Of a stretch of 35,343 nucleotides of DNA, positions 1,429 to 8,400 are shown one piece after another. Position 1 is the first letter of the stretch, and each line of letters opens with the position of its first letter. The notes beneath the pieces were generated by a model, which saw nothing but the letters and a program-made list of their open reading frames with translations, was not told the origin of the DNA and ran no database searches. The stretch is from Egibacteraceae bacterium (GTDB lineage: Bacteria > Actinomycetota > Nitriliruptoria > Euzebyales > Egibacteraceae): positions 1 to 35,343 of the forward strand of contig JBBDQS010000166.1 of the NCBI GenBank assembly GCA_040905805.1, given 5' to 3'. Position numbers and translations under genes: made by a program.

Positions 1429-1791
1429 ATGGAACGCAGCCTCGTCGTCAAGATCACGCACGCGCTCGACGACCCCGAGCGAGCGCACATCGGCTGCAAC
1501 GTGGGGGCGGTCGCGCTGGCCAGCGGCATCGGCGTCCACCTCTTCCTGGCGGTGGAGGGCGTGGGGCTCGCCCAGGAGTCGGTGGCCTTGCAGCTCGAGC
1601 TGGCCGAGGCCCCACCGATCACCGATCTGCTCGACGCGCTCTACGCCGGCGGCACCGTCACGGTCTGCACGCCGTGCGCGACCCGCCGCGGGTTGGCGCA
1701 GGCCGACTTCCGCCCCGGCACCGAGATGGCCGGCTCGGCCCGCTTCGTCGAGCTCGCCACCGCCCCCGGCGCGACCGCCCTGGTGTACTGA
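1429..1791 (+). CDS. DsrE-family protein with a CxxC motif
   Basis: A 120-residue soluble protein with a DsrE/DsrF-like fold: a beta start (LVVKITHALDDPERAHIGC), an alternating helix/strand pattern and the family's active loop near the end of strand 4 (VTVCTPCATRRGL). Cys80 and Cys83 form a CxxC in the place where DsrE-type proteins carry the sulfur-accepting cysteine, so persulfide handling is plausible but not shown. It stands alone on the plus strand with its own leaderless -10 box and a strong terminator behind it. It keeps the cysteines that the three DsrE-like proteins at 2952-4017 have mostly lost, so it is probably functionally distinct from them. Confidence 0.75.
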   Translation: MERSLVVKITHALDDPERAHIGCNVGAVALASGIGVHLFLAVEGVGLAQESVALQLELAEAPPITDLLDALYAGGTVTVCTPCATRRGLAQADFRPGTEMAGSARFVELATAPGATALVY

Positions 1792-1958: not shown

Positions 1959-2390
1959 CTATGCGGCGCGACGGCGGGTGCGGACCTCGCCGCGGTCGAG
2001 CAGGGCCGTGACGTCGGCCGGGTCGGGCACGCCGGCGATGCGTCCCAGGACCAGACCGTCGGGGGCGACGGCGAAGGTGGTGGGGGTGCGCAGCACCTTG
2101 TGGGCGCGGGCGAGGTCGAGCTGTTCGGCGACGTCGGCGACGCGGACGGTGACGTCGTCGCGGTCGGCGACCGTCTGGTCCAGCACGCGGCGGGCCGTGA
2201 CGCATGGTGCGCACGACGGAGCGGTGAACTCGACGAGCAGCTGGCGGCCGGACGGTGCGCCGAGCGCCGCGAGCTCGGCCTCGGTGAACCGGTCGGTGAC
2301 CGCGCGGACCCGCCCGTCGCGGGCGCGCCACCACAGTGCGGCAGCCGCCGTCGCGGCGACGACGACGGCGAGGATCGCCAGCTCGGTCAT
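1959..2390 (-). CDS. Membrane-anchored thioredoxin-like protein
   Basis: 143 residues. An N-terminal transmembrane helix (about 4-21) ends in WWRARDGR and is followed by a thioredoxin-fold domain. The redox motif is CAPC at residues 60-63, inside LLVEFTAPSCAPC, and the later TPTTF carries the cis-proline of the fold. The expected role is thiol-disulfide exchange at the membrane; the positive residues right after the helix would favour a cytoplasmic domain. It follows the DUF4395 gene by 28 nt on the same strand, and the two form a two-gene unit often seen together. The partner protein of the redox pair cannot be named from sequence. Confidence 0.82.
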   Translation of the reverse strand: MTELAILAVVVAATAAAALWWRARDGRVRAVTDRFTEAELAALGAPSGRQLLVEFTAPSCAPCVTARRVLDQTVADRDDVTVRVADVAEQLDLARAHKVLRTPTTFAVAPDGLVLGRIAGVPDPADVTALLDRGEVRTRRRAA

Positions 2391-2418: not shown

Positions 2419-2853
2419 TCATGCCCGGCTCTCCGTGCGCGACCCGCCGACCAGGCGCCTGCCGATCGCGTACATCTCGCAGCCGACGCACAGGCCGGTC
2501 GCGGCGAGCAACCCCGACAGGGCCACCACGACCAGCACCAGGGCCCAGCCGAGGACGCTCGCTCCGGCCAGCACCGCGGCCAGCCCGGCCCCGGTGAACA
2601 GCAGCCCCATCAGCTGGGAGAACCGGGGCCCCGCCTCCGGCTCGGTCGCCGGGGGCGGCCCCCAGTCGAGGCGGCGCTTCAGGAGCCGGAAGAGGTTGCC
2701 GTAGGGCGACCAGCGCAGCCCGGCGAGGGCGGACACGGCGAAGACCGCCACCTGGACGGCCAAGAGCACCGTGGACTGGGCCGCGAACGCGGCCGCCAGC
2801 ACCAGGAAGGTCAGCGCGGCCGAGAACCGCGGACCGCGGACGTCGATCTCCAT
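2419..2853 (-). CDS. DUF4395 integral membrane protein
   Basis: 144 residues with about four hydrophobic segments (roughly 10-47 as two, and 82-120 as two) around a basic loop (FRLLKRRLDWGPPP). The C-terminal CVGCEMY places Cys122 and Cys125 as a membrane-proximal CxxC, the typical end of DUF4395 proteins. These often sit beside a thioredoxin, as here, which suggests electron transfer across or along the membrane; this is an inference from context. The start at 2853 is preceded by AGGAG nine nt upstream. Its leader contains one copy of a duplicated 34-bp sequence. Confidence 0.82.
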   Translation of the reverse strand: MEIDVRGPRFSAALTFLVLAAAFAAQSTVLLAVQVAVFAVSALAGLRWSPYGNLFRLLKRRLDWGPPPATEPEAGPRFSQLMGLLFTGAGLAAVLAGASVLGWALVLVVVALSGLLAATGLCVGCEMYAIGRRLVGGSRTESRA

Positions 2854-2951: not shown

Positions 2952-3329
2952 CTACCAGCCGATCAGCGCGTCGGCGGTGCGCAGCGCCTCGGCGAGGGCT
3001 TGGTGGTCGCGCACGGTCACGCCGGGCACGAGGTCGGCGGGGGCGAGCCCGAGGCGGTCGAGCTCGTCGGCGGCGACGATGACCTCGACGCCGCTCTCGA
3101 TCAGGCCCTGCAGGTCCTGGGCGCTGGCGGCGGGCGGCAGGGCCACCCCGGCGAGCTCGCCGGGACGCACCTCGCCGCCCGACAGGGCCAGCTCGACGGC
3201 GGGGCCGCGCAGGACCAGGGTGAGCTCGACGTCCTCGGCCACGGCGTAGGCGTTGGCCTCCAGGGCGGGCTCGGTGGGCCGCAGCGCCCCCGCGACGCCC
3301 TGCAGCATGCTCACCACCCGCCGGGTCAT
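2952..3329 (-). CDS. DsrE/DsrF-like small protein, Cys-free
   Basis: 125 residues from the ATG at 3329 (MTRRVVSML). A longer start at 3356 would run into the upstream gene, while the chosen one leaves a 16-nt gap and has a G-rich site before it. The pattern of a short beta start, a central VELTLVLRGPAVELAL, and the late VEVIVAADELDRLGL followed by VTVRDHQALAEAL is that of DsrE/F/H-type sulfur-relay subunits. The position that usually holds a cysteine in the late strand is alanine here, and the protein has no cysteine at all. It is the last gene of the four-gene operon that starts at 5054. A structural or ligand-binding role is more likely than persulfide transfer. Confidence 0.7.
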   Translation of the reverse strand: MTRRVVSMLQGVAGALRPTEPALEANAYAVAEDVELTLVLRGPAVELALSGGEVRPGELAGVALPPAASAQDLQGLIESGVEVIVAADELDRLGLAPADLVPGVTVRDHQALAEALRTADALIGW

Positions 3330-3345
3330 GGCCGTCCCCCCGCCG

Positions 3346-3699
3346 TCACGGCGCACCGCCGGCGGAGAGCACGATGTCGGCGGTGCGCACGAACGCCCAC
3401 AGGTCGGCGTGGTCGCCGGCGACGACGCCGGGGGCCTGGCGGTCGACGACGCCGAGGCGCCGCCCCGCCCCGCTGTCCACGACCCAGTCGAGGGTGCCGC
3501 CGTGGACGCCGCGGCGCAGCAGGGCAGCCACCGCCTCGGCGACCTCCCCGGAGCCGGCGGACAGCGCCGTCGCGTCGTCGTGGGCGAAGACCGTCACCCG
3601 GTGGCCGCGGTTGAGGACCCGCTCGGCCAGCTTGAGGGCCGTGGCGGTGCGCTCGCTGGTGACCCCCCCGGTGAGGACCAGTGCCATGGTGCGGGCCAT
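3346..3699 (-). CDS. DsrE/DsrF-like small protein, Cys-free
   Basis: 117 residues beginning MARTMALVLTGGV; M5 is an alternative start. The profile (ALVLTGGVTSERTATALKLAERVLNRGHRVTVFAHDD, then a C-terminal ADLWAFVRTADIVLSAGG) fits the DsrE fold, in which several protomers with Rossmann-like sheets assemble into a ring. It has no cysteine, so the conventional sulfur-acceptor chemistry is absent. It starts directly after the stop of the gene at 3700-4017 with no gap, which points to coupled translation, and it is followed 16 nt later by the next DsrE-like gene. The three adjacent genes resemble a DsrEFH/TusBCD arrangement in layout. Confidence 0.72.
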   Translation of the reverse strand: MARTMALVLTGGVTSERTATALKLAERVLNRGHRVTVFAHDDATALSAGSGEVAEAVAALLRRGVHGGTLDWVVDSGAGRRLGVVDRQAPGVVAGDHADLWAFVRTADIVLSAGGAP

Positions 3700-4017
3700 C
3701 TAGAGCCACACCGCCCGGTCGGCCCCGTCGGCCACGAGGTCGGCGATCTCGTCGAGGTCGATGGTCTTGCAGCCCGGCGTGACGGCGTCGCCGACCAGCC
3801 CACGGCGGCGCAGCGCGTCGTCGTGGACGCTGACCGCCACCCCGGCGCCCAGCGCCGCGGCGACCGCGGACGCGTCGGCGTGTCCGGGCCGGGCCAGTGC
3901 GGCGGCGCGGTCGAGGAGCACGGCGGTGACGGTGTCCCCGGCACCCACCCAGGCCCGGGCCAGGTCCAGCGCCCACCGCGGGTCGCGCGAGACGAGCATG
4001 GCGTGGTGCACCGTCAC
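3700..4017 (-). CDS. DsrE/DsrH-like small protein
   Basis: 105 residues from a GTG at 4017 that overlaps the stop of the upstream regulator (GTGA). An ATG six codons in, at 3999, is the alternative. The sequence runs MLVSRDPRWALDLARAWV, then VTAVLLDRAAAL, then VAVSVHDDALRRRGL and finally CKTIDLDEIADLV, the order of elements in DsrE-type proteins. The usual cysteine before the DALRRRGL-like helix is replaced by His (VSVHDDAL). One Cys remains, in PGCKTIDL. Translational coupling to the HTH/TusA-like regulator shows that the two are made together. This may be the only subunit of the trio able to carry a thiol modification. Confidence 0.72.
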   Translation of the reverse strand: MTVHHAMLVSRDPRWALDLARAWVGAGDTVTAVLLDRAAALARPGHADASAVAAALGAGVAVSVHDDALRRRGLVGDAVTPGCKTIDLDEIADLVADGADRAVWL

Positions 4018-5054
4018 TGCCCCTTCCGGATCAGCAGGCGGATCCCGGGGCGGTCGGTGGCGTCGGCAGCCCGCTCGACACCGAGCAGCTGGTGGCCGGC
4101 CCGGTCGGCCCAGCGGGCGAAGGCCGCGGGGGAGCCGGGGCCCTCGGCGATGACCTCCAGGACCTCCCCTGCCTGCAGCCCCGTCACCGCGCGCATCGCC
4201 CGTACCACGCCCTTCTCGCGGGGTTGGCCGCGCACGTCGACGCGGTCGACGGGCTGGACCGCCGGGCGCCCCCCCGCCTGGGCGCTCGCCCGCGCCCGCC
4301 AGGTGCGACCCCGCCCGGGGGCCTCGTCGGCCTCGGACAGGGTGACCGGCACCCCCACCGCGGCCAGCGCGCCGGAGACCAGCCCGCGCTCGAGCACCTC
4401 GGCCAGCTCCGGGCGGCCGGGGCCGAGCAGCGAGAAGGTCCCCGAGATCCCGACGATGTCCACCCAGTCCCGACCGGCCTTCACGACCCTGGCGTCGGGG
4501 GCCAGCGCCCTCAACGCGCGCAGCGCCGCGGAAGCGCGGTCCTCGAGGGTGCGGTCGGCGTCGGAGGGCGCCGGGGCGCCCTCGGCGGCGAGCACCAGTC
4601 GGCGGGCCTCGGACGCCGCGGACTCGTGCGCCCGGGTGGTCAGGGGCACGCCGCGCCCGTTGGCGGCCGGGGCGCCGTCGAGCAGCCCGGCCAGCAGGCG
4701 TACGAGCATGGCCGCGCACGCGGTGCCGCCGACGCCGTCCGTGGCGCCCGGGTCGACGCCGTCCACGTCGGCGCGGGCCTGGTAGAGCTTGGCGGGACGG
4801 CCGCCGCGGGGGTGCTTGCGCAGGCCCACCCCGACCAGGCCGGCGTCGGCGAGGGTCTCCAGGTGCGTGCGGGCGACGTTCGGGTGCAGGTCGAACGCGT
4901 CGGCGACGTCGCGGACGGTCAGCGCGGCCTCGGCCTCCTGCAGGTGCTCGTAGATCCCCGCGCGGGTCGACGAGCCGAGGGCCCGTGAGACGCTCACGGC
5001 GCGGCGCCGGGCGACAGGCCGCTCGACAAGTGCGGTGGACCCGGCGGCGGTCAC
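4014..5054 (-). CDS. Winged-helix regulator with a C-terminal TusA-like domain lacking its cysteine
   Basis: 346 residues from the GTG at 5054, chosen because GAGGAG lies 5 nt upstream (AGAGGAGCGACC); a longer reading from 5165 would run through 14-bp repeats. Residues about 24-92 are an ArsR/HTH_20-type winged helix (SRALGSSTRAGIYEHL, VRDVADAFDLHPNVARTHLE, GRPAKLY). The last 80 residues follow the TusA/SirA pattern (VDVRGQPREKGVVRAM, then LQAGEVLEVIAEGPGS, then ARWADRAGHQLLGVE, then IRLLIRK). The conserved CPxP of TusA reads QPRE here, so the sulfur-carrying Cys is gone. It is the first gene of an operon with three DsrE-like genes. I infer a regulator that senses a ligand or a partner through a TusA-derived domain, perhaps by docking to DsrE-like rings. 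Confidence 0.8.
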   Translation of the reverse strand: MTAAGSTALVERPVARRRAVSVSRALGSSTRAGIYEHLQEAEAALTVRDVADAFDLHPNVARTHLETLADAGLVGVGLRKHPRGGRPAKLYQARADVDGVDPGATDGVGGTACAAMLVRLLAGLLDGAPAANGRGVPLTTRAHESAASEARRLVLAAEGAPAPSDADRTLEDRASAALRALRALAPDARVVKAGRDWVDIVGISGTFSLLGPGRPELAEVLERGLVSGALAAVGVPVTLSEADEAPGRGRTWRARASAQAGGRPAVQPVDRVDVRGQPREKGVVRAMRAVTGLQAGEVLEVIAEGPGSPAAFARWADRAGHQLLGVERAADATDRPGIRLLIRKGQ

Positions 5055-5070: not shown

Positions 5071-5109
5071 GCGGGTCGGGTAGGGCGGGTCGGGTAGGGC
5101 GGGTCGGGG
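5071..5109. repeat. 14-bp tandem repeat, about 2.8 copies
   Basis: GCGGGTCGGGTAGG is repeated at 5071-5084 and 5085-5098, with a partial third copy to 5109. It lies in the leader of the HTH/TusA-like gene, just upstream of its ribosome-binding site. The GGGTCGGGT core resembles that of the 22-bp array at 1-110. Confidence 0.9.
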
Positions 5110-5113
5110 TTTG

Positions 5114-5130
5114 CACTGACCTCACCAGTG
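5114..5130. promoter_or_regulatory. Palindrome upstream of the HTH/TusA-like regulator
   Basis: CACTG (5114-5118) and CAGTG (5126-5130) form an inverted repeat with a 7-nt spacer. It lies 60 nt upstream of the regulator start in a locally A+T-richer patch (5110-5185). It could be an autoregulatory operator. The arms are only 5 bp, so chance is a real alternative. Confidence 0.35.
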
Positions 5131-5187
5131 TTATCACGCCATCGACGCCCGCTCCAAGGTCGCATGGTAGTGGGAACGATGTAAACC

Positions 5188-5973
5188 CTACACCGCTGTC
5201 AGGCGGGCCAGGGCGTACGCGGCCGGGGCGGCGAGCAGCACGGGCAGCGCCACGGTGGTCAGCACGCCCGCGCCCCGCGGCAGCCCGGCGCCCCCGTCGG
5301 CGCGCCAGGCGGCGAGGGCGTCGTCCAGCGCCTCGCGGACCAGTCCCGCGGCGGCCGTGGCGACCAGCGCCACCGCGGTCACCCCGGCGGTGCTGGTCAG
5401 GGTGAAGGGCGGGGCGCCCACCGTGAGCAGCAGCCCGCCGGTCACGAAGGCCGCGGCCACCGTCGCGCCCGCGCCCGCGGTCGCGTCCATGCGGGCGGTG
5501 GCGACCTGGCGGGCCACCTCGACCACGACCACCGCCAGCACGACGCCGAGCACCCACCGGAAGCCGTCCGGCAGGGACCGCAGGAGCAGCAGGCCCCCCG
5601 CGCCGAGCCCCACCACCAGCCCGGCCAGCGCCGTGGCCCCCAGCACGTCGGTGACGTCATGGCGCCGCCCGAAGGCCAGCATGGCCAGGAACGTGGCGAG
5701 CACCCCGCCCGCGACGAGGTCGGGCGTGGCGGTCCAGCCCTGCTCGGGACGCAGGGCGACCAGCGCGGGCAGGCCCACCGCCGGGATGGCCGCCGCCAGC
5801 ACGACGGGGCGGGGGCCGGCGCTGCCCAGCACGCTGCTGAGGTCCACCAGCAGCAGTACCGCCAGGACCACCACGACGACGGCGAACGGCCGGGGTCCGG
5901 CGACCAGGGCGATGACCGCGGCCAGCCCCGTCACCGCGCCCACCGGGACGGCGGTCACCGGCACGGCGGTCAC
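5188..5973 (-). CDS. Polytopic membrane protein, unidentified
   Basis: 261 residues with seven or more hydrophobic stretches covering most of the chain (for example AVVVVVLAVLLLVDLSSVLG, VLGATALAGLVVGLGAGGLL and VLGVVLAVVVVEVA). Polar loops are short; the longest hydrophilic piece is VREALDDALAAWRADGG near the C-terminus. I recognise no catalytic or transport motif. The overall look is faintly like the CdsA-type cytidylyltransferase family, but its signature is not visible. The ATG at 5973 overlaps the stop of the MoaD-like gene (ATGA), so the two are translationally coupled, which may mean that the membrane protein and the sulfur carrier work together. Confidence 0.7.
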   Translation of the reverse strand: MTAVPVTAVPVGAVTGLAAVIALVAGPRPFAVVVVVLAVLLLVDLSSVLGSAGPRPVVLAAAIPAVGLPALVALRPEQGWTATPDLVAGGVLATFLAMLAFGRRHDVTDVLGATALAGLVVGLGAGGLLLLRSLPDGFRWVLGVVLAVVVVEVARQVATARMDATAGAGATVAAAFVTGGLLLTVGAPPFTLTSTAGVTAVALVATAAAGLVREALDDALAAWRADGGAGLPRGAGVLTTVALPVLLAAPAAYALARLTAV

Positions 5974-6383
5974 CGGCGGGCTCCACGCCAGGTTCCACGG
6001 CGGGCTCCGCGGTGGGGTCGGGGCGTGGCGGGCGTGGCGCCCCCGCGGCCTTCACGGTGGGGTCGGGGCGTGGCGGGCGTGGCGCCCCCGCGGCCTTCAC
6101 GGCGGGGTCGGGGCGTGGCGGGCGTGGCGCCCCCGCCGCCCCCGCCGCTGAACGGTGGCAGCAGCGCGATCTCCGACCCGTCGGCCACCTCGACGGCGGT
6201 GTCGCGGCCGACCGGGTCGCCGTCGACCAGGACCGTGCACACCGCCAGCCTGGCCGGGAAGGGCTCGCGGTACCGGTCGCGCAGCTGGTCCAGGACGGCC
6301 GGGAGCGGGCCCGGCTCGACCGTGGTCTCCGACGTGCCGGCAGCGTCGCGCACCGCGGCGAACAACCGTACTCGCACCGCCAC
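5970..6383 (-). CDS. MoaD/ThiS-like sulfur carrier with a repeat-derived C-terminal tail
   Basis: 137 residues from a GTG at 6383 with GGAGGAGAG seven nt upstream. Residues 1-81 are a ubiquitin-like MoaD fold (VRVRLFAAVRDAAG, VLVDGDPVGRDTAVEVADGSEIALLPPFSGG). In MoaD and ThiS the chain ends at GG, which is adenylated and then carries sulfur for molybdopterin or thiazole. Here the PPFSGG is followed by four more Gly and about 52 residues. Most of these are encoded by a 45-bp tandem repeat (15-residue unit REGRGGATPATPRPH). The GG is therefore internal and inactive unless a protease trims the tail. It is also possible that a stop codon was lost by repeat expansion. The gene is divergent from glnR and overlaps the membrane protein gene by ATGA. 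Confidence 0.8.
   Translation of the reverse strand: MAVRVRLFAAVRDAAGTSETTVEPGPLPAVLDQLRDRYREPFPARLAVCTVLVDGDPVGRDTAVEVADGSEIALLPPFSGGGGGGATPATPRPRREGRGGATPATPRPHREGRGGATPATPRPHRGARRGTWRGARR
6011..6135. repeat. 45-bp coding tandem repeat, about 2.8 copies
   Basis: Units at 6011-6055 and 6056-6100 are identical, and a third runs to about 6135 where it merges into the poly-Gly codons. The 45-bp length keeps the reading frame and gives a 15-residue protein repeat in the MoaD-like tail. Confidence 0.93.
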
Positions 6384-6424
6384 CGCCGCCCTCTCCTCCC
6401 GTGTCCGTCGGCTCGATGGGCCCA

Positions 6425-6450
6425 ACCGTACCGGCCTGCTGCGCTAGCAT
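6425..6450. promoter_or_regulatory. Divergent -10 boxes between the MoaD-like gene and glnR
   Basis: TAGCAT (6445-6450) would start the glnR transcript about 28 nt before its GTG, enough for the AGGAGG seen there. On the other strand TACGGT (plus-strand 6425-6430) would start the MoaD-like transcript about 35 nt before its GTG. No clear -35 hexamers are visible. Confidence 0.4.
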
Positions 6451-6484
6451 CGATGACGCTGGCCTGCCGCAGGAGGGAGCCCGG

Positions 6485-7213
6485 GTGCACCTGCTCGTCC
6501 TGTCCGAGGTCCCCGGTGCGGGCAAGTCCCTGCTGCCGGCCCTGGAGTTCCTCGACCACACGGTGGCCGCGGCCAGGCTGGCGCCCGAGTCATTAGACAC
6601 CCAGGGGTCGGCCGACGTCGTGGTCGTCGACGCGACCGCGGACCTCGCGGCGGCCTCGCAGGTGTGCCGGGCCGCGGCGGCGGCGGAGCGCGCCCGCCCG
6701 GTGCTGCTGGTCGTGGCCGACGCGGGGTTGGCGGCGGTCAAGTCCAGCTGGGGCTTCGACGACTTCCTCGCGCCGTCGGCGCAGCCGGCGGAGCTGGAGA
6801 CCCGCCTGCGCCTGCTGGCCGACCGGTCCCACCAGGACGTCGGAGGCCGCACCGAGAGCGTCGGGGAGCTCACCATCGACGAGGACACCTACATCGTCCG
6901 GCTGCGCGGGCGGCCGCTGGACCTCACGTACCGCGAGTTCGAGCTGCTGCGCTTCCTGGTCGCCCGTCCCCGCCGGGTCTTCACCCGCGGCCAGCTGCTC
7001 CAGGAGGTGTGGGGCTACGACTACTACGGCGGCACCCGCACCGTGGACGTGCACATCCGCCGGCTGCGGGCCAAGCTCGGCGCCGAGTACGAGCAGCTGA
7101 TCGGCACCGTGCGGGGCGTGGGCTACAAGCTCGATCCCCAGGGCGCCGCCGGGCACAGCGGCGAACCGGACGACGACCCGGACGACGAGGAACCGGACGC
7201 GCCCGGTGCCTGA
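6485..7213 (+). CDS. glnR: Orphan OmpR-type nitrogen regulator GlnR
   Basis: 242 residues from a GTG at 6485 with AGGAGGG 6-12 nt upstream. The N-terminal receiver-like domain (about 1-115; DVVVVDATADLAAASQVCR, AVKSSWGFDDFLAP) is of the atypical kind that is not phosphorylated in the classical way. The DNA-binding winged helix (about 130-220) is very close to actinobacterial GlnR: DEDTYIVRLRGRPLDLTYRE, VFTRGQLLQEVWGYDYYGG, then TRTVDVHIRRLRAKLG and GTVRGVGYKL. GlnR controls ammonium assimilation and nitrate use. No histidine kinase is nearby, as expected. The acidic tail (GEPDDDPDDEEPDAPGA) is an addition beyond the core. A tandem 84-bp repeat begins at its own TGA. Confidence 0.9.
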   Translation: MHLLVLSEVPGAGKSLLPALEFLDHTVAAARLAPESLDTQGSADVVVVDATADLAAASQVCRAAAAAERARPVLLVVADAGLAAVKSSWGFDDFLAPSAQPAELETRLRLLADRSHQDVGGRTESVGELTIDEDTYIVRLRGRPLDLTYREFELLRFLVARPRRVFTRGQLLQEVWGYDYYGGTRTVDVHIRRLRAKLGAEYEQLIGTVRGVGYKLDPQGAAGHSGEPDDDPDDEEPDAPGA

Positions 7214-7378
7214 CTCGTGAATCGCTCCGAGCCTGCGAGGACGATTCTCTGCTGTGCCGGGTGTGGCGGTCGCCCAGCGACCGCCATGGAATCCTGACTC
7301 GTGAATCGCTCCGAGCCTGCGAGGACGATTCTCTGCTGTGCCGGGTGTGGCGGTCGCGCAGCGACCGCCATGGAATCC
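7211..7378. repeat. Tandem pair of an 84-bp dispersed repeat
   Basis: Two head-to-tail 84-bp units (7211-7294, 7295-7378) differ at one base. Unit 1 begins with the TGA stop of glnR, and each unit is followed by another TGA. Each unit has two hairpins: GAATCG/CGATTC (7219-7224 with 7242-7247) and a 10-bp stem TGGCGGTCGC/GCGACCGCCA (7264-7273 with 7277-7286, loop CCA). The second stem can act as a terminator between glnR and the convergent mshD. Related copies occur at 23028 and 35275. The following 7379-7419 is plain spacer. Confidence 0.95.
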
Positions 7379-7419
7379 TGACCCGGCGGTGGTGGCCCGC
7401 CAGGCCACGTCGCCGGGCC

Positions 7420-8400
7420 TCAGGCGGGTCGCAGCAGGTCGTCGGGTGCGGCGACCGCCGGGGGCACCTGCTCCTCGTAGCAGACCTCCATGTGGTCGGT
7501 CGCAAAGCCCGCCGACCGGTAGAGCGCGACCGGGCCGTGGTGCGCGGCGTCGACGTAGAGGATCGCCTGGCGGCAGCCGCGGTCGTGCATGTGCGCCAGG
7601 CCCGCGGCCAGGAGCGTGCGCCCGAGGCCGAGGCGCTGGGCCGCGGGGTCGACCGCCAGGACGTACACCTCGCCGACGGGCTCGTGGGCGGCGTCGGGGA
7701 CCTCGTCGGCGTCGTGGCCGTGCCACTTGGTCCAGTGGAAGCCCAGCAGGTCAGCCCCGCGCCACGCGAGGATGAGCCCCTCCGCCGAGAACCAGCGCAG
7801 GGCGCGGCGCTCGGCCAGCATGGCCCGGTCCCACCCGCCCTGCTCGGGGTGCTCGGCGAACGCGGCGTTGTTGACCCGCAGCACCTCGTCGTCGTCCTCG
7901 CCGGGCCGGTACGTGCGCAGGACCACGCCCTCGGGCGGGGTGGGGACCGCCGGACGGTCGGGCAGCTTGCGGGTCATGAGCAGGAGCTCGCGCTGCACGG
8001 TGAAGCCGGCCCGCGCGGCCAGCGTCGTGCGGGCATCGGTGACGTGGCGCACCCACAGGTACAGCAGGCCGCCGCCCGTGCGCGCCACCAGCGCCCGGGT
8101 CGCGTCGAGCAGGCGCAACGCCAGCTGCTCGCAGTCGGCGCGGTCGGGGCGCACCACCACCTCGGCCGCTGCGCGGGGCCGGGCGCCCGGGGCGTTCCAG
8201 CGGATGTGGGCGTAGCCGACGAGCACGTCGCCGTCGTAGGCGAGCGCCCCGGTCCAGTCGGTAGCGCCCGCCGCGAGGTGGGCGTACTTGTGCTCGCCGA
8301 CCGGCGGGTGGCCCTCGAGGCGCGTGACGTCGTCGAGCAGCGCGCGCACCCGGTCGACGACCGCGTGGTCGAGCGTCGCGGCCACCTCGATGCGCACCAT
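7420..8400 (-). CDS. mshD: Mycothiol synthase (acetyl-CoA:Cys-GlcN-Ins acetyltransferase)
   Basis: 326 residues with two GNAT domains in tandem, about 1-155 and 160-320. The second holds the acetyl-CoA loop (VYVLAVDPAAQRLGLGRTLL) and the family hallmarks NNAAFAEHPEQGGW, RWFSAEGLILAW, LLGFHWTKWHG and LYRSAGF. MshD performs the last step of mycothiol synthesis, acetylating the cysteine amine of Cys-GlcN-Ins with acetyl-CoA in the cytosol. Mycothiol is the main actinobacterial thiol, which places the organism in that phylum. The gene is divergent from a Fur-family gene, with only 23 bp between start codons and overlapping -10 boxes, so the two are likely to affect each other's transcription. Confidence 0.92.
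   Translation of the reverse strand: MVRIEVAATLDHAVVDRVRALLDDVTRLEGHPPVGEHKYAHLAAGATDWTGALAYDGDVLVGYAHIRWNAPGARPRAAAEVVVRPDRADCEQLALRLLDATRALVARTGGGLLYLWVRHVTDARTTLAARAGFTVQRELLLMTRKLPDRPAVPTPPEGVVLRTYRPGEDDDEVLRVNNAAFAEHPEQGGWDRAMLAERRALRWFSAEGLILAWRGADLLGFHWTKWHGHDADEVPDAAHEPVGEVYVLAVDPAAQRLGLGRTLLAAGLAHMHDRGCRQAILYVDAAHHGPVALYRSAGFATDHMEVCYEEQVPPAVAAPDDLLRPA

Follow-up and report, generated by a model that had tools for sequence, protein, structure and literature searches.

The window analyzed here, a 35,343-nucleotide (nt) stretch of an Egibacteraceae genome (assembly GCA_040905805.1, contig JBBDQS010000166.1, positions 1 to 35,343), carries on its minus strand a gene for a predicted transcriptional regulator, followed by three genes for DsrE-like proteins (the trio). 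An initial annotation, made from the sequence alone, had described the regulator as a DNA-binding domain fused to a TusA-like domain devoid of its sulfur-carrying cysteine, and had proposed that the partnership of TusA with a DsrE-like ring was reused here without sulfur chemistry, the ring titrating the regulator. The genes concerned and the domains of the regulator are as follows.

4014..5054, minus strand: regulator gene, 346 amino acids (aa), GTG start; HTH_20 winged helix-turn-helix (wHTH) domain, V4R/TRAPP-like middle domain and TusA-like domain
4770..4979, minus strand: winged helix DNA-binding domain, residues 26-95 (Pfam HTH_20), with a strongly conserved HPNVARxH recognition region in alignments
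4287..4727, minus strand: middle domain, residues 110-256, TRAPP/Bet3 (V4R-like) fold (Foldseek matches 6aq3, 7b6d and 3cue; alignment)
4020..4247, minus strand: TusA-like domain, residues 270-345 (PF01206; structural match to 3lvj_C)
4209..4229, minus strand: GQPREKG, residues 276-282, in place of GxxCPxP (homologue alignment)
3700..4017, minus strand: DsrH/TusB-like subunit, 105 aa, one non-conserved cysteine (residue 83); TIGR03011 and PF04077 family matches
3346..3699, minus strand: DsrE/TusD-like subunit, 117 aa, no cysteine; model matches DsrE 2hy5_A; weak TIGR03012 match
2952..3329, minus strand: DsrF/TusC- or TusB-like subunit, 125 aa, no cysteine; possible GTG start at 3356

The stop codon of the regulator gene overlaps the start of the first DsrE-like gene and the later gaps are 0 and 17 nt, a tight packing which supports a single operon for the regulator and the trio.

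Both ends of the regulator were recognized by Pfam, HTH_20 with an E-value of 6e-9 and TusA (PF01206) with an E-value of 4e-8 (33.4 bits vs. a cut-off of 28.6; 36.6 bits in a whole-genome search), confirming that a TusA-like and a DNA-binding domain are joined in one protein. In an AlphaFold model obtained with 32 sequences (mean predicted local distance difference test score, pLDDT, of 87.7), residues 270-346 formed a complete TusA fold (beta-alpha-beta-alpha-beta-beta; block pLDDT of about 92-98), which matched Escherichia coli TusA with template modelling (TM) scores by target of 0.86 (3lvj_C) and 0.80 (1dcj). The middle domain matched the TRAPP/Bet3 subunits 6aq3, 7b6d and 3cue (TM by target 0.52-0.55), a fold linked to the prokaryotic V4R domain in an earlier paper (PMC2253512). 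The C-terminal domain follows TusA in both profile and fold, and lacks its catalytic CPxP cysteine: as initially read, residues G276 to E280 spell GQPRE where TusA has GLxCPxP, with R279-E-K-G282 replacing CPxP. The sole cysteine of the regulator, residue 113, lies outside the TusA domain.

The regulator was searched for in 60 relatives and the genome of origin, and was present in all good-quality genomes (33/33). The named relatives belong to the Nitriliruptoria (Euzebyaceae, Egibacteraceae, Nitriliruptoraceae and Salsipaludibacter). Across 396 genomes sampled evenly from the phylum, all three domains were matched together in this class alone, and matches beyond it comprised the helix-turn-helix (HTH) and middle domains only. 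None of the 47 homologues readable at the TusA cysteine column kept the cysteine, which was replaced by R in 22, by Y in 19, by F in five and by L in one; the second proline of CPxP had become a near-invariant glycine, and the former cysteine site carried the class signature DxRGxx[RYF][EQD]xG[VI]. Further, the regulators as a whole contained 11 cysteines in 15,555 residues of 48 homologues (0.07-0.08%), an approximately ten-fold depletion relative to neighbouring proteins (0.88%). Decay of a single copy among cysteine-bearing homologues, an outcome raised with the initial annotation, is ruled out by this class-wide conservation, and the loss of the sulfur-carrying cysteine is, as judged from the alignment, clade-wide. 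One regulator per genome was found, and nearly all genomes also encode a separate TusA, which in the genome of origin is canonical (CPLP) and adjoins a cysteine desulfurase. Two regulator copies (L035 and L037) were seen in G006, the metagenome-assembled genome YX1bin5; only one of them has the trio (C38), the other lacking it (C8).

Outside the class, relatives of the regulator lack the TusA domain and bear cysteines of the form CPF..C..C in the middle domain, and some of them weakly match the models TIGR02702 (SufR), NF053755 (MsvR) and PF18546. The ligands of SufR Rv1460 are C203, C216 and C244 (PMC6034842), and the V4R domain of MsvR bears three cysteines (PMC3729527); by analogy, the CPF..C..C cysteines may bind an iron-sulfur (Fe-S) cluster or sense redox changes. 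All of them are absent in Nitriliruptoria. The order regulator-DUF4395-thioredoxin was found in 4/5 loci read from one family, f14, followed by acyl-CoA dehydrogenase as in some Nitriliruptoria, and this common gene order identifies the f14 locus as orthologous. Since the out-of-class orthologues retain SufR/MsvR-like cysteines and lack TusA, two layers of thiol chemistry are gone in Nitriliruptoria. Sequence comparison places the regulator in a wHTH plus V4R-like family, within which the class lacks the cysteines and carries a fused, cysteine-less TusA-fold domain; loss of a thiol sensor together with gain of this domain is the likely history. In family f12 (G128, G138, G095, G067 and others), several matches to the HTH and middle domains span a single in-frame TGA.

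The region upstream of the regulator gene contains two predicted operators.

5168..5186, minus strand: predicted tandem operator GTTTACATCGTTCCCACTA
5109..5133, plus strand: predicted second operator, consisting of the exact half-site GTTTGCACTG (5109-5118) and AGTGTTA 9 nt further on

The exact half-site GTTTGCACTG occurs only twice in the genome of origin: one copy precedes the regulator, and the other lies within an unrelated coding sequence. Upstream of regulator genes, TTTNCACTG half-sites are arranged in 9-bp tandem, frequently accompanied by an inverted copy close to the start codon, and 51 half-sites were counted vs. 1.2 expected. With up to four mismatches allowed, tandem sites preceded 33/48 regulator genes (0.05 expected). 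They also preceded 13/26 moeZ-type E1 genes (0.07 expected) and 9/18 metY genes (0.02 expected). The latter include metY of the genome of origin (C98), whose predicted site is GTTGCCACTGTTTGCACCC; no site was seen in the upstream sequence of its moeZ. Tandem sites were found in 0/11 metY paralogues and none in 88.5 kb of canonical tusA loci. A pattern scan of the genomes of the 60 relatives returned 26 sites vs. three for the reversed pattern, and those away from the regulator precede moeZ-type E1 genes, metY and a JAB/Mec-like protease. Mec was largely dismissed as a regular target (tandem site in 1/29, half-sites in 5/23), and a site at a peroxiredoxin gene (L209) and those inside coding sequences were treated as chance. 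Outside the class, relatives carry the same half-site in palindromic form, the spacer being 8 nt (TTTACACTACTTATGTAGTATAAA; TTTACACTGTCTCGGTAGTGTAAA); these half-site bearers (L114-L118, L068 and L123, including Symbiobacteriaceae) lack a TusA domain, and no response regulator adjoins them in the DNA examined.

MetY, an O-acetylhomoserine sulfhydrylase, makes homocysteine from sulfide. MoeZ, an E1 enzyme that activates sulfur carriers, sulfurates both CysO and MoaD in mycobacteria (PMC3227635). The predicted operators thus lie beside genes of cysteine and methionine synthesis. The occurrence of the operator at the regulator, moeZ-type E1 and metY genes leads to the prediction of a sulfur-assimilation regulon, and it strongly suggests that TTTNCACTG half-sites in 9-bp tandem are the binding sites of the regulator, both at its own promoter and, for many species, at moeZ and metY. 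The initial annotation had missed both these predicted targets and the SufR/MsvR-like cysteine loss; what is new here is the loss of a second cysteine set, the orthologous cysteine-bearing locus, the conserved half-site and the predicted sulfur regulon.

The trio lies directly downstream of the regulator and resembles a DsrEFH/TusBCD set, as had been proposed. Two of the three proteins score below the Pfam DsrE cut-off singly, and the third subunit is above it (PF02635). In family scans, the first subunit was matched by TIGR03011 (TusB/DsrH) in 6/19 homologues (best 2.6e-7) and by PF04077 in 7/19 (best 2.4e-6), the second weakly by TIGR03012 (TusD/DsrE) in 9/19, and the third by TIGR03011 in 9/19 (1.9e-5) and TIGR03010 in 7/19 (0.013), pointing to TusB/TusC. 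The profiles of the three families are mutually related. The model of the second subunit (pLDDT 89.7) had DsrE 2hy5_A as its best PDB match (TM 0.83, E-value 8e-6), followed by YchN and then TusD 2d1p_A. Taken with the family evidence, this model makes the DsrE fold firm. The operon encodes three DsrE-fold subunits resembling E, F and H, the H assignment being better than those of E and F, which are moderate; alignments of the trio profiles to single E. coli TusB, TusC and TusD sequences were weak and partial, and the curated TusB/C/D equivalog cut-offs were not reached. The trio is treated as DsrEFH-like and not as a member of DsrEFH/TusBCD.

The trio proteins contain 1, 0 and 0 cysteines in gene order from the regulator, in agreement with the counts first given, and the three families have 0.46-0.70% cysteine. 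At 0.88% cysteine, a protein of 105-125 aa without any would be expected about 33-40% of the time, so the low counts mean little alone and were rejected as evidence. What goes beyond chance is the class-wide lack of the catalytic cysteine together with the depletion in the regulator itself: no conserved cysteine column was present in any of the three trio families, and DsrE/TusD Cys78 and DsrH Cys20 are absent. A separate DsrE-family gene (1429-1791, plus strand), beside thioredoxin, retains cysteines (CTPC), and its homologues average 2.6% cysteine.

The trio was detected in about 25/61 genomes, always directly downstream of the regulator save for two weak partial matches, and the H subunit was likewise beside the regulator in the phylum sample. 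Draft genomes may hide some copies; about half of the genomes keep the regulator with no trio at all, complete genomes among them. Trio-bearing and trio-less lineages are intermixed in the regulator tree, and the identity ratio of the TusA to the HTH domain is 0.91 with and 0.92 without the trio in family f4, and 1.04 vs. 1.10 elsewhere. Among the readable homologues, the residue at the former cysteine site tracks phylogeny and does not vary with trio presence. Because the regulator is kept, with an equally conserved TusA domain, where the trio is missing, this domain must have a trio-independent use, and the trio as sole partner is not supported.

The remaining genes of the locus belong to a gene row found across the class: MshD - response regulator - MoaD-like - membrane protein - regulator - [trio] - DUF4395 - thioredoxin - YgfZ.

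5970..6425, minus strand: MoaD/ThiS-family sulfur carrier (PF02597, 2.6e-9), upstream in the same gene row (synteny)
5188..5973, minus strand: membrane protein weakly matching a cytidylyltransferase family, encoded between the regulator and the MoaD-like gene (synteny)
2419..2853, minus strand: DUF4395 membrane protein (Pfam 1e-33), a constant downstream neighbour of the regulator, also outside the class
1959..2390, minus strand: thioredoxin-like protein, a constant downstream neighbour of the regulator (synteny in and outside the class)

A GlnR-type orphan response regulator adjoins the mycothiol synthase MshD (6374-8400), both being constant neighbours of the regulator locus; this region resembles Rv0816c-Rv0819 of Mycobacterium tuberculosis. 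An 84-bp tandem duplication (7209-7382) separates the two genes, and a 37-bp tandem repeat (2.1 copies, 97%) at 2864-2939 sits precisely in the gap separating the trio from the DUF4395 gene. In the MoaD/ThiS-like carrier, GG is followed by a repetitive tail of more than 50 residues arising from a 45-bp tandem repeat (6010-6140). In several relatives the carrier stops at GG or shortly beyond it (LLPPFAGG and stop), and tails are also present in L040 and L004; the carrier encoded here would have to be trimmed before thiocarboxylation.

With respect to known systems, the regulator resembles SufR (Rv1460) and MsvR in combining an HTH_20/ArsR-like N-terminal wHTH with a related middle sensor domain, in the three cysteines kept by its out-of-class relatives and in a site of the kind seen in autoregulation. 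It differs from them in lacking all three sensor cysteines, in the additional TusA-fold domain and in its predicted targets, which are sulfur-assimilation genes and not the suf operon. Its C-terminal domain shares fold, profile score and the D and W positions with TusA carriers, but has R, Y, F or L for the cysteine and glycine for the second proline, and is fused to a regulator while a canonical TusA is kept separately. The trio, like DsrEFH/TusBCD, comprises three adjacent DsrE-fold genes linked to a TusA-like partner, but it scores far below the equivalog cut-offs and is devoid of DsrE-Cys78 and DsrH-Cys20, both essential in Allochromatium vinosum (PMC3397948). The DsrE cysteine was found in 99.3% of 985 type II sets, the remainder being ascribed to sequencing errors (PMC13293266). 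A precedent for sensing of sulfur status through a partner protein is CymR-CysK of Bacillus and Staphylococcus (PMC2869319), similar in logic if docking occurs here as we infer, although CymR belongs to an unrelated regulator family (Rrf2) and its partner is likewise unrelated. The sulfane-sulfur repressors SoxR/sHdrR control sulfur genes and are possibly tied to TusA-type sulfur supply (PMC11582611), whereas the present regulator has no conserved cysteine. No open-access paper joining a TusA domain with a helix-turn-helix, or Nitriliruptor with a sulfurtransferase, was found; subscription literature was outside the search.

We favour, with moderate confidence, a Nitriliruptoria-wide regulator of sulfur assimilation that acts as a docking-based sensor and has the trio as an optional partner. 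Sulfur status would be the signal. It would enter by protein docking on the TusA-like domain, without persulfide or Fe-S chemistry on the regulator itself; the occupancy of a sulfur-relay partner would in this way report sulfur supply and alter DNA binding. The co-transcribed, cysteine-less DsrEFH-like ring would be one such docking partner in species that have it, and could provide feedback given that the regulator is proposed to control its own operon; in trio-less species another TusA partner, such as cysteine desulfurase or other canonical TusA clients, would serve. Several points weigh against this reading. The operator was first spotted by eye in the same regulator upstream regions that were later counted, a set that does not enter the moeZ, metY and out-of-class counts; about a third of the regulator genes have no recognizable tandem site, and Mec has one in only 1/29; and where the relatives have a palindrome, Nitriliruptoria have a tandem repeat, which is unusual for ArsR-type dimers. 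More tentatively, TusA and the DsrEFH ring may together have been turned into a cysteine-free partner-switching device that replaced the ancestral thiol or Fe-S sensor, kept its half-site and runs the sulfur-assimilation regulon of the class.

Several alternatives were considered. A small molecule (e.g., O-acetylhomoserine, sulfide or a thiol metabolite) might be bound by the TusA-like and/or V4R-like domain, the R/Y/F and D-x-R residues that are new here providing the site; the trio would then bind the same ligand or act elsewhere. This is possible but doubtful: the replacement motif is itself conserved and metY is among the predicted targets, while TusA folds are known to serve as protein-docking modules. 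Ligand binding by V4R-type domains of other regulators, a lead from the literature, would also be in its favour. The initial view, with the ring as an anti-regulator dedicated to titrating the regulator via the TusA-like domain, appears unlikely. The exclusive location of the trio beside the regulator and its DsrE-like folds agree with it, as does the known partnership of TusA with DsrEFH/TusBCD (PMC13293266), but many lineages keep the regulator and an equally conserved TusA domain without the trio, and the cysteine-replacing residue follows phylogeny; the titration model is too narrow.

It is more improbable still that the operator belongs to another factor, e.g., the neighbouring GlnR-type response regulator, and that the regulator fused to TusA acts on different genes. 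Tandem repeats typify OmpR/GlnR-type binding, and the gene of the response regulator is consistently found nearby; however, distant relatives including Symbiobacteriaceae have the half-site with no such neighbour in the DNA examined, the targets are sulfur and not nitrogen genes, and the spacing is 9 bp. A decayed pseudo-operon of a former TusABCD-type relay would account for the lost catalytic cysteines, but this explanation is highly improbable, being contradicted by open frames, class-wide conservation, the conserved replacement motif, synteny and the operator. The original reading of the locus as a neutralized sulfur relay is judged sound.

Known sulfur regulators mostly sense via cysteine persulfides, disulfides or Fe-S clusters. 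Here, an orthologous locus can be traced from a sensor that bears cysteines and has no TusA domain to a regulator that has a TusA fold and almost no cysteine, the half-site being preserved, which offers a concrete case for how sensing chemistry may be exchanged for protein docking. It also cautions against writing off cysteine-less DsrE sets as sequencing errors, and supplies a regulon open to testing in a little-studied class of soil and sediment bacteria, in which parts of a sulfur-delivery system have seemingly been turned from chemistry to sensing.
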